Virus record (IMG/VR): IMGVR_UViG_3300005974_000001
Location: 1-43,888 of that record
Strand: one strand, 5' to 3'
Source of the DNA: a virus
Length of the DNA stretch: 43,888 bases
The notes below the pieces were generated by a model. The model was given only the letters and a program-made list of their open reading frames with translations. It was not told the origin of the DNA and ran no database searches. Made by a program: the position numbers and the translations under genes. This document shows, piece after piece, positions 1,825-43,888 of the stretch (the stretch's first letter is position 1; every line of letters begins with the position of its first letter).

Positions 1825-1938
1825 CTAGGGACGCCTACCCATGTTGGGGTTCGGCTTCACCGGGTCACCCAGGATCTCCAGGATTGCAGCTCGGGTTCGG
1901 ACTGAGGGAATCCTGATGGATTTCTCCACCTGATCCAC
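1825..1938 (-). CDS. Small basic protein or out-of-frame C-terminal segment
   Basis: 37 residues from GTG (MDQVEKSIRIPSVRTRAAILEILG...), with a helix that could bind DNA. The same frame stays open upstream, overlapping the end of the AP2 frame 1865-2458. The tail of that frame looks non-coding, while this frame looks coding. It is either a separate small gene or the real C-terminus of the AP2 protein displaced by a frameshift. Confidence 0.4.
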   Translation of the reverse strand: MDQVEKSIRIPSVRTRAAILEILGDPVKPNPNMGRRP

Positions 1939-2458
1939 CCAACTGGAGTCCTTGCTGACTTCTCCACTCCCTTGATGCCCGGCCTGCTGAGTCCTCGTCC
2001 GTGAAGTTCCCCAGCCATGCCCGCTTCTTACCTTGTGCCGGCTGTGCTGACCATGAACCTCTGGACCAGTAAACCCCATTGTACACCGAGACCTCTGTGT
2101 CCTCGATGGGGTCTATGGACTTGAGACCGTTGGAGTCCCTGGGGAGCCTTCTGATGTCATCATCCCAGTAGCGGCCAGCCCAGACACCGGACTTGTTAGC
2201 GGTCTTAAGAGCTAGGAGCCTGCATTCCTCGAAGTCCGGGCACTCGGTCTTGCATCTCTGGGATCTCCTGTTGATCTCCTTCCTGGTCAGACTCTCATCG
2301 TCAGTGACAGTTGATGTCCAGTCGATATCTGAGTCTTCGTACTCTTGGAGGCAGGGCTTGAGTTCCTTAGCCAGTTCGGGACTGCTGGTTGGTTCGAGCT
2401 TAGAGGCTTGAGTCCTCGATTCCTTATTAGCTCCCTTGCCTTCGATGGGGTAACTCCT
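1865..2458 (-). CDS. WhiB-like plus AP2 DNA-binding reading frame without a start codon
   Basis: Open frame of 197 codons with no ATG, GTG or TTG before a GTG at 2086. Its middle has the WhiB signature: a cysteine (ELKPC), then RCKTECPDFEEC and, 13 residues later, GVWAG. WhiB proteins bind a 4Fe-4S cluster through four cysteines and end in a GVWGG turn; here the central spacing is C-x3-C instead of C-x2-C. Downstream is an AP2 domain (YNGVYWSRGSWSAQ ... AWLGNFTDEDSAGRA). The frame overlaps the CHC2 gene in the -1 phase and looks coding exactly where the CHC2 frame stops looking coding, so it may be joined to it by a frameshift. Likely a DNA-binding, possibly redox-sensitive regulator. Confidence 0.55.
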   Translation of the reverse strand, partial: RSYPIEGKGANKESRTQASKLEPTSSPELAKELKPCLQEYEDSDIDWTSTVTDDESLTRKEINRRSQRCKTECPDFEECRLLALKTANKSGVWAGRYWDDDIRRLPRDSNGLKSIDPIEDTEVSVYNGVYWSRGSWSAQPAQGKKRAWLGNFTDEDSAGRASREWRSQQGLQLGGSGGEIHQDSLSPNPSCNPGDPG

Positions 2459-2661
2459 TCAACGGATGCAACCAGGGTGACTGCATTGCCTTTCCTCTGG
2501 CAAGCGTGACACTTGAACCCGGTAAGAGACACTGAAGCCGACTGGTTCCTGTCAGGGTGGAAGGGGCACCGGATAGCCTTCCAGGTTCCGTGCCCCCGAA
2601 CGCTCCCATCCCAGCCATAGGCCTCCAAGATTGGGGCAATGGGGATGGGCTCTCTATCCAT
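2287..2661 (-). CDS. CHC2 zinc-finger primase domain protein
   Basis: 124 residues. The first 80 are a DnaG-type zinc-binding domain: CPFH (Cys32, His35), a strand, then CHAC (Cys51, Cys54), followed by GNAVTLVASVEGVTPSKARELI, the usual helix after CHC2. This domain recognises template DNA for primer synthesis. There is no TOPRIM core in this protein; that half is encoded at 10384-10989 on the other strand. The last 45 residues (rich in S, T, K) look out of frame and overlap the WhiB-like frame in the -1 phase. The start overlaps the stop of the preceding gene. Confidence 0.75.
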   Translation of the reverse strand: MDREPIPIAPILEAYGWDGSVRGHGTWKAIRCPFHPDRNQSASVSLTGFKCHACQRKGNAVTLVASVEGVTPSKARELIRNRGLKPLSSNQPAVPNWLRNSSPASKSTKTQISTGHQLSLTMRV

Positions 2662-10297: not shown

Positions 10298-10442
10298 GCA
10301 TATCAAGAGGGTCAGGAGAATCCTCCGAGAGCCAGATGTCAACAAGGCTGCTAGGGAGTGGATTGAGTTCCAGAGGGAGTTAGATGAAGAACACAACCGA
10401 GCTAGCCAACCTCTATCATCAACAGTATCTAGAGTCTGGTAA
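10272..10442 (+). CDS. Small helical protein overlapping the primase core gene
   Basis: 56 residues (MKNTEKLDRHIKRVRRILRE...). It overlaps the previous gene by 26 bases and the TOPRIM gene by 59. The part before 10384 looks coding; the end (SQPLSSTVSRVW) looks like read-through of another frame. AGGATCA precedes the ATG. Confidence 0.45.
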   Translation: MKNTEKLDRHIKRVRRILREPDVNKAAREWIEFQRELDEEHNRASQPLSSTVSRVW

Positions 10443-10989
10443 TGACTATTGGGAGTCCAGGGGGTTCAATGAACAGACTATTGCTAGGTTTAAACTAGGG
10501 TTAGTAGTTAGTCCTAAGACCGTAGACTCGGTGTACTTCAAAGGTTCACCTACTATCCCTTACCTGACCCCAGATGGTTATGCTTACCAGATCAGAGTCA
10601 GGAGTCCCAAGGATGGGGGACCCAAGTACCTACCTCTGGTCAGAGAACATCCAGGAGAATCTAAGGTTCATCTGTTCAACGCTAGGGACTCTCTAGAGTC
10701 TGGTGTCTACATCACCGAGGGAGAGATTGACTGTATAACACTAGTTCAGTTAGGGTACCCAGCAGTTGGAGTTCCGGGTGTCAGTAGTTGGAGAAGCCAC
10801 TGGAGATACCTCCTGGAGGACTCTGAACCAACACTGATCCTGGACCCAGATGAAGCCGGCAACCAGGGTAGAGAGTTCATCAAGAGGGACCTTAATTGCA
10901 CCGAGATTCATCTGGAAGACCTGGACCTCAATGACCTGTTAGTACACCGGGGTCCAGAATCCATTCATAAACTACTGGGAGGTAAGTGA
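10384..10989 (+). CDS. TOPRIM primase core (DnaG-type)
   Basis: 201 residues. After the DnaG-like start (YWESRGFNEQTIARFKLGLV) and strands (TIPYLTPDGYAYQIRVRSP) comes a TOPRIM domain: EGEIDC (Glu112), ILDPDEAGNQG (Asp154, Asp156) and a last acidic patch LEDLDLNDLL. These residues hold the metal ions for primer synthesis. The zinc domain normally at the N-terminus of DnaG is absent and is encoded at 2287-2661 on the opposite strand, so the two proteins may act together. AGAGGGAG precedes the ATG. Confidence 0.85.
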   Translation: MKNTTELANLYHQQYLESGNDYWESRGFNEQTIARFKLGLVVSPKTVDSVYFKGSPTIPYLTPDGYAYQIRVRSPKDGGPKYLPLVREHPGESKVHLFNARDSLESGVYITEGEIDCITLVQLGYPAVGVPGVSSWRSHWRYLLEDSEPTLILDPDEAGNQGREFIKRDLNCTEIHLEDLDLNDLLVHRGPESIHKLLGGK

Positions 10990-41119: not shown

Positions 41120-41149
41120 GTCAACCAAGAACAACAGTTGGGGGGGGAG

Positions 41150-41920
41150 ATGCACAAGCTGATCAAGATCATGCTTGACCAGTACCAAGAATCAGACCAG
41201 AAGCTTCACGACCAGGAGACTCCTGAGGGATTAATCTGGGGAGTCCGGACGGTTCATCCAGACCTGCGTAGTTCGAGAGGGTACCGGTGGCGCTGGGGGT
41301 GGAATGAGGCTTCTGGGCCATTCGAAGGCCACAAGGGACCATGCCCGCTGACTGCAGGTGACGGGATCTGCGTAGCCAAGAACTGGGAAGGTATGGCATC
41401 AGGAGGGATTCCTGCCTCTACCCTACTCCTGACCGGCTACCTCCCAGATGATGTTCTGGGGGAGGACCATAACAAGGTCCGCGTCAGGAGGGCCTTTGTG
41501 GTAGACATTGTTGATGGGGTTCCCCTCATCAGCAAGTATGGAGAACGCGCAGACCTCAGGGGTGCAGACCTCTGGGGTGCAGACCTCAGGAATGCAAATC
41601 TCAGGGGTGCAGACCTCAGGAATGCAAATCTCAGGGGTGCAAACCTCAGGAATGCAAACCTCAGGAATGCAGACCTCAGGGGTGCAGGCCTCGGGAATGC
41701 AAATCTCAGGAATGCAAACCTCAGGAATGCAGACCTCTGGGGTGCAGGCCTCGGGAATGCAGACCTCGGGAATGCAGACCTCAGGAATGCAGACCTCAGG
41801 AATGCAAATCTCGGGAATGCAGACCTCGGGAATGCAGACCTCAGGAATGCAAGCCTCTGGGGTGCAGACCTCAGGGGTGTAGACCTGAGTCCAGACCAGT
41901 TGAAGGTCTGCATTCGCTAA
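41150..41920 (+). CDS. Pentapeptide-repeat protein
   Basis: 256 residues. A globular N-terminal half (1-133, with WGVRTVHPDLRSSRGYRWRWG and VRRAFVVDIVDGVPLI) is followed by 23 uninterrupted pentapeptides A(D/N)LxX (134-248), which fold into a right-handed quadrilateral beta-helix of nearly six coils. DNA-mimic members of this family block gyrase; most phage members are of unknown role. The DNA of the repeats is itself a 15-bp tandem array, a sign of recent expansion. G-run and GAG stand directly before ATG. Confidence 0.85.
   Translation: MHKLIKIMLDQYQESDQKLHDQETPEGLIWGVRTVHPDLRSSRGYRWRWGWNEASGPFEGHKGPCPLTAGDGICVAKNWEGMASGGIPASTLLLTGYLPDDVLGEDHNKVRVRRAFVVDIVDGVPLISKYGERADLRGADLWGADLRNANLRGADLRNANLRGANLRNANLRNADLRGAGLGNANLRNANLRNADLWGAGLGNADLGNADLRNADLRNANLGNADLGNADLRNASLWGADLRGVDLSPDQLKVCIR
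41549..41893 (+). repeat. 15-bp tandem repeat array coding the pentapeptides
   Basis: About 23 copies of a GCAGACCTCAGGAAT-like unit, each one pentapeptide. Units differ at few positions (GAC/AAT, AGG/TGG/GGG, GGT/AAT), and several neighbours are identical. Not a CRISPR: there are no spacers and it is in frame with the protein. Confidence 0.85.
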
Positions 41921-43614: not shown

Positions 43615-43845
43615 ATGGCACAGTTGCCGGGTGATGATGGTTGGTTGGTTGGAAGCGAGGGGAGCATCGTATCCGTCTCCCGTCCGAGGTTGGATGATGA
43701 CGAATGCATTGTGAGCTTCGACGCTAGGAACATGCAAGAGGTTGGTCAGGCCCAGTTCGCCATTCACAAGTCAGACGACCTCACAGAGGAGCAGAAGTCC
43801 TTTGCTCACTTCTGGTGTGGCTACTTCTACGGAAAACTCACGTAA
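43615..43845 (+). CDS. Hypothetical protein crossing the circle junction
   Basis: 76 residues; ATG directly follows the previous TAG. Beta start (GWLVGSEGSIVSVSRPRLDDD; CIVSFDARNM), then HKSDDLTEEQKSFAHFWCGYFYG, a helix found in small actinophage proteins. Its last 80 bases are repeated at 1-80. The HTH gene follows (91-255 in the other copy). Confidence 0.6.
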   Translation: MAQLPGDDGWLVGSEGSIVSVSRPRLDDDECIVSFDARNMQEVGQAQFAIHKSDDLTEEQKSFAHFWCGYFYGKLT

Positions 43846-43888
43846 AGGAGATCAAGTGACGCAAGCAGAGGCAATCCGCAAGCTCAGC
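43766..43888. repeat. Terminal direct repeat, copy 2 (circular overlap)
   Basis: Exact copy of 1-123. It includes the last 33 bases, from GTG at 43856, of the start of the HTH gene found complete at 91-255. Confidence 0.95.

Follow-up and report, generated by a model that had tools for sequence, protein, structure and literature searches.

A WhiB-AP2 reading frame overlapping a phage CHC2 primase gene and its predicted ATC start

How is an open reading frame translated that encodes two protein domains and lacks an ordinary start codon ahead of the second one? The question is raised by a minus-strand frame, 2458-1865, in a 43,888-nt viral record, the whole of which was analyzed and is referred to here as the window. 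The first-pass annotation of this DNA had reported in this frame a WhiB cysteine signature ending in GVWAG followed by an AP2 domain, and no ATG, GTG or TTG upstream of the AP2 part. Both statements hold. Profile matches agreed with the two domains, and the frame, 197 codons without a stop, is free of all three start codons over its first 124 codons. Other start-less stretches in the genome had a weaker coding signal, except those opposite large genes.

WhiB-like and AP2 domains in one frame

Judged by motif and profile, the WhiB and AP2 domains in this frame are real. Residues are numbered from an ATC codon at 2446, the proposed start discussed below; the WhiB-AP2 gene would then span 1865-2446 (minus strand, 193 codons before the stop), as delimited by open frame, domains and codon usage. 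The WhiB-like [4Fe-4S] domain (2174-2353, minus strand, residues 32-91) displays the pattern C-x32-C-x3-C-x5-C followed by GVWAG, with C32, C65, C69 and C75 at all four conserved positions. The turn after the last cysteine is one residue away from the strict G(V/I)WGG consensus. With Pfam PF02467 this part scored 24.4 bits (E 4e-5), above the curated cut-off of 23.6; E-values with the PHROG WhiB families ranged from 4e-5 to 1e-3, and blastp against a set of five proteins gave 9e-8 with Gordonia phage WhiB proteins. The Gordonia proteins aligned with the frame have KPC, C-x3-C-x5-C and GVWAG in common with it. From family membership, binding of a [4Fe-4S] cluster and interaction with a sigma factor are predicted.

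The AP2 DNA-binding domain (1949-2092, minus strand, residues 119-166) remained below the Pfam PF00847 cut-off (16 bits versus 33.3, E 0.015). Against the PHROG HNH/AP2 families (PHROG 99) the E-value was 2e-4, and alignment of phage HNH-AP2 proteins with the frame by hhalign gave 93% (E 3e-7) over residues 119-166. A PDB search returned weak top matches, among them WhiB1 and the plant AP2/ERF protein TEM1 (7et4, E 0.054). Because the assignment is by profile similarity (hhalign, PHROG, PDB) and the Pfam cut-off was not reached, the domain is filed as AP2-like. An AlphaFold model of WhiB-AP2 alone, calculated without supplied homologues, had a pLDDT of 39, too low for use.

The closest known counterparts are actinophage Wbl proteins such as Gordonia IDyn gp70 and Sukkupi gp72 (PHROG 14304, 9926 and 12112; PF02467), which share the four cysteines and the C-x3-C-x5-C spacing. 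As here, the IDyn and Sukkupi domains begin with EMKPC or ELKPC and carry the GVWAG phage variant; WhiB1 has C-x2-C in place of C-x3-C. WhiB genes are common among phages, and in some clusters replication genes are found nearby (PMC8612146); in IDyn the WhiB gene overlaps a helicase gene, comparable to the overlap described below. Unlike WhiB-AP2, the Gordonia phage proteins are devoid of an AP2 domain, and each starts at an ATG of its own. Fusion of a Wbl domain to another domain is known from WblP, a Wbl-ECF sigma fusion of plasmid SCP1, in which the partner is a sigma factor and not AP2 (PMC6282962). The AP2 part is 38% identical over 48 residues to that of phage HNH homing endonucleases (PHROG 99 and 3593); here the HNH nuclease domain is absent and a WhiB domain stands in its stead.

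The pairing of WhiB with AP2 had been considered unusual, and our scans, which are sensitive to close relatives or strict motifs only, recovered the same phage only. A protein scan and four DNA patterns applied to viral contigs returned nothing else, nor did 50,697 phage records and 72,556 plasmids. Seven pattern matches in genome contigs were rejected as chance frames. Three weak AP2 matches were obtained in 397 genomes of the phylum to which a Frankiales MAG belongs, and no WhiB motif was seen at the loci examined. We found no description of the pairing in the literature searched. It is likely to be rare. In terminase-related sister phages (L022-L025, of which L022 and L023 are partial records) the CHC2 locus was present in none; contig L022 represents the same phage in another part of the genome and does not cover this locus. 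WhiB proteins with other C-terminal extensions occur in L024 and L025 (their WhiB loci are L029 and L030) and in the CHC2-related L004, and in one of these proteins, L032, the extension has CxxC pairs and resembles a zinc ribbon. The C-terminal parts of WhiB proteins seem to be exchanged among phages.

Overlap with the CHC2 gene and the layout in related phages

The WhiB frame overlaps, in the -1 phase, the gene for a CHC2 zinc-ribbon primase (ORF1; 2287-2661, minus strand, ATG start, 124 aa; Pfam PF01807 3.7e-7, PHROG DNA primase 1e-16). Counted from the ATC, the overlap is 160 nt. ORF1 is roughly 30-54% identical to actinophage CHC2 ORFs.

Which frame is read was examined by codon usage, with 20 confident genes of the same phage as the reference. 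The WhiB-AP2 stretch 2446-1950 had a mean score of 0.20, and none of 67 equally long, stop-free non-coding stretches scored higher. Within the overlap the CHC2 frame scored -0.22, which is non-coding-like. Past about 1950 the score of the WhiB frame drops to -0.30. The frame ending at 1825, over its 37 codons, reaches 0.30 and outscores 98.8% of non-coding frames. The coding signal thus leaves the CHC2 frame for the WhiB frame near 2430, and near 1950 it moves on to the frame ending at 1825. Two such switches, near 2420 and 1960, had been noticed earlier; the first is clear, the second is genuine but less certain. The KPC which is conserved in the Gordonia phage WhiB relatives maps to 2353-2351 in the WhiB frame. 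Genuine coding must therefore extend upstream to 2353 or beyond, and initiation or slippage has to fall within 2458-2353.

The locus was compared with 12 annotated actinophages in which the Toprim half of the primase is a second ORF that overlaps the CHC2 ORF. The overlap is usually 149-191 nt long, and the second ORF is in the +1 frame in every case. Ten of the 12 have the start of this ORF within the CHC2 motif E-(E/G)-V-(S/T)-(Y/F), at the Y/F codon of E-(E/G)-V-(S/T)-(Y/F)-A-E-A or a close equivalent. The start is ATG (from TAT GCA) or TTG (from TTT GCA). The Shine-Dalgarno (SD) sequence sits in the E-E-V or E-G-V codons, with duplex energies of -7.5 to -14. In Naca the second ORF is annotated to start further in, and a TTG is present at the motif position. 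Nested starts were seen at the actinophage loci L007, L008, L033, L035, L036, L038-L041 and L044, and also at L004 and L009. The nested CHC2/second-ORF layout appears to be widespread in actinophages; in the literature we found no description of CHC2/Toprim nesting with an SD written into a conserved motif.

In HINdeR (gp53/52), Dennebes (gp63/62) and others the ORF2 start and its embedded SD lie in the CHC2 motif, as is predicted for the present locus. There, however, ORF2 is Toprim in the +1 frame and starts with ATG or TTG; the ORF2 of the present phage is in the -1 phase, encodes WhiB-AP2 and has a predicted ATC start. Judged from the sequence, WhiB-AP2 is in the place which the Toprim ORF holds in the relatives. 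The Toprim primase half of the present phage is encoded alone at 10384-10989 on the plus strand and has an ordinary ATG. Unlike in related phages, it is far from its CHC2 partner and on the opposite strand.

Where does translation of WhiB-AP2 start?

The CHC2 motif here reads V-E-G-V-T-P-S-K-A. In its DNA, GAAGGAGTTACCCCATCG, AAGGAG is followed by seven bases and then by ATC. The SD (2454-2459, minus strand) lies within the CHC2 codons for V-E-G-V, and the ATC (2444-2446, minus strand) is the first start-like codon past the in-frame stop at 2461-2459. The duplex energy is -9.0 kcal/mol compared with a median of -5.3 for genes of the same phage. No other start-like codon within 2458-2353 is preceded by an SD; for CTG 2374, the alternative candidate, the SD energy is 0.0. 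By chance, the 34 available codons should contain about 0.04 such pairs of an SD and a near-cognate codon. In addition, the ATC is one base off the position at which the second ORF of the relatives starts. The match in position could be a coincidence, because ORF2 here is in the -1 phase and encodes a different protein, whereas it is +1 in all relatives.

Starts other than ATG, GTG or TTG are rare, which counts against initiation at ATC. So does the fact that E-G codons favor an AAGGAG-like SD in the motif whether it is used or not. A homologue with an intact canonical start that would confirm the boundary of WhiB-AP2 was not found in the collections searched. On the other side stands a precedent in Streptomyces, where the start codon of infC is ATC and that of sigR is GTC; through these non-canonical starts IF3 autoregulates infC and represses sigR (PMC5472188). 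In these host genes the starts are experimentally proven, and in the phage the use of ATC is predicted. The precedent makes an ATC start in an actinophage plausible. Of the options that had been left open at the outset, a non-standard start codon is thus favored, i.e. ATC 2446 with its strong, well-spaced SD at the start site of the relatives' ORF2. We regard a nested WhiB-AP2 gene which starts at this ATC as the best-supported account, probable rather than assured.

A WhiB frame without a canonical start and a codon usage which changes frame at about the expected places would also be seen if a programmed -1 frameshift in CHC2 (2458-2353) produced a CHC2-WhiB-AP2 fusion, perhaps with a +1 shift near 1950 that adds a tail; even the AAGGAG upstream resembles the SD-like elements of some bacterial frameshift sites. 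Yet an X-XXY-YYZ slippery heptamer was absent from the overlap searched (2478-2287), and nowhere in the overlap can both tRNAs re-pair with at least two of three bases after a -1 slip. The full join would take two unrelated shifts, and the second is unnecessary because the AP2 domain is already complete within the WhiB frame by about 1948. Furthermore, relatives have independent starts at the CHC2 motif, WhiB relatives are stand-alone genes, and a CHC2-WhiB-AP2 fusion was not found in any collection searched. A frameshift is unlikely, and the proposal in the first-pass annotation of two shifts joining CHC2, WhiB, AP2 and tail into one protein found no support. Could a start have existed and been lost? 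A recent mutation might have removed a canonical start or an in-frame fusion and left WhiB-AP2 silent or barely expressed. The ATC is but one base from ATG, and that two contigs share the defect is in keeping with a fixed mutation. However, codon usage and both domains are intact, internal stops are absent, and the ATC, a known actinobacterial start (PMC5472188), is preceded by an SD at ideal spacing. We concede a small chance to such a loss.

Both sequences are metagenome assemblies, and the frame breaks might thus reflect a sequencing or assembly error. Against this, a contig from another metagenome, IMGVR_UViG_3300025354_000006, has the same DNA, with three substitutions and no gap in 8,458 bases. 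The sites in question are outside homopolymers, and the nested-gene model requires no indel. An error is highly improbable, and the assembly indel considered earlier is correspondingly unlikely. One substitution, at 2412 in the overlap, alters an amino acid in the CHC2 and WhiB frames alike; being the only one between the two copies at this locus, it is too little to gauge selection on the frame. Finally, WhiB-AP2 may start at another codon in 2458-2353, such as the CTG at 2374, or the AP2 part alone may be made from GTG 2086, which has a moderate SD (-5.9). The former has no SD energy at all, and the latter does not explain why the WhiB domain is conserved and has a coding signal. We consider either start decidedly unlikely.

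A possible regulator and its genome

With the ATC start as the preferred reading, the locus would be a nested gene pair. ORF1 would encode one half of a split phage primase, the part with the CHC2 zinc ribbon. ORF2, WhiB-AP2, would begin at ATC 2446, within ORF1 but in a different frame, with its AAGGAG supplied by the codons of the conserved V-E-G-V. If IF3 represses ATC starts here as well, the output of WhiB-AP2 from an mRNA shared with the primase part would be low and IF3-sensitive; such a control by IF3 is predicted. WhiB proteins bind to region 4 of the primary sigma factor SigA, and WhiB7 has an extra AT-hook for DNA (PMC6282962). In WhiB7/WblC as in WhiB-AP2, a distinct element for DNA binding comes after the WhiB domain; in the former this is a short AT-hook, in the latter an AP2 domain. 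By analogy, the WhiB domain may hold an iron-sulfur cluster and dock on region 4 of the main sigma factor of the host, and AP2 may provide the sequence-specific contact with a DNA target, i.e. the role of the AT-hook in WhiB7. By the same analogy, WhiB-AP2 is most likely a transcription regulator of the phage.

Taken as a whole, a regulator with a new domain pairing would be translated from an AUC nested in a primase gene at a level set by host IF3, a switch tied to the fidelity of initiation, and the ORF2 of an old nested pair would have been exchanged for one in a new frame. This full scenario is possible, and we put it forward tentatively. Gene callers assume ATG, GTG or TTG and miss such genes; the present one would appear in their output only as a short AP2 piece. 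If ATC is indeed the start, this is a testable phage case of regulation by start-codon choice with IF3 as a clear host factor. WhiB-AP2 is also a natural variant in which the division of work between a WhiB domain and its DNA-binding partner can be studied.

The window is a whole phage genome, because its ends (1-123 and 43766-43888) share 123 identical bases; it is circularly closed or permuted, because contig L002 spans the junction. It encodes terminase, major head protein, endolysin, integrase, a DnaB-like helicase and the Toprim primase half. RNA families and tRNAs were searched for, and none was found. The CHC2 matches were overwhelmingly to phages of Mycobacterium, Rhodococcus and Streptomyces, and WhiB domains are actinobacterial (PMC6282962). 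Both observations make actinobacteria the likely hosts.

The best reading of the frame that stops at 1825 is a candidate mini-ORF of its own (1825-1938, minus strand, 37 aa, GTG 1938 or 1929), which overlaps ORF2 at its end; the alternative is a frameshifted tail. Its codon usage is coding-like (top 1.2%), its SD is weak (-5.5/-6.6), and a homologue of the mini-ORF was not found. It ends at a convergent gene. Elsewhere, at about 41549-41886, an internal direct repeat was observed, in which a stretch of some 280 bases is an 86% match to itself at an offset of 60 bases. This suggests a 60-base tandem unit in the plus-strand ORF 41138-41920.
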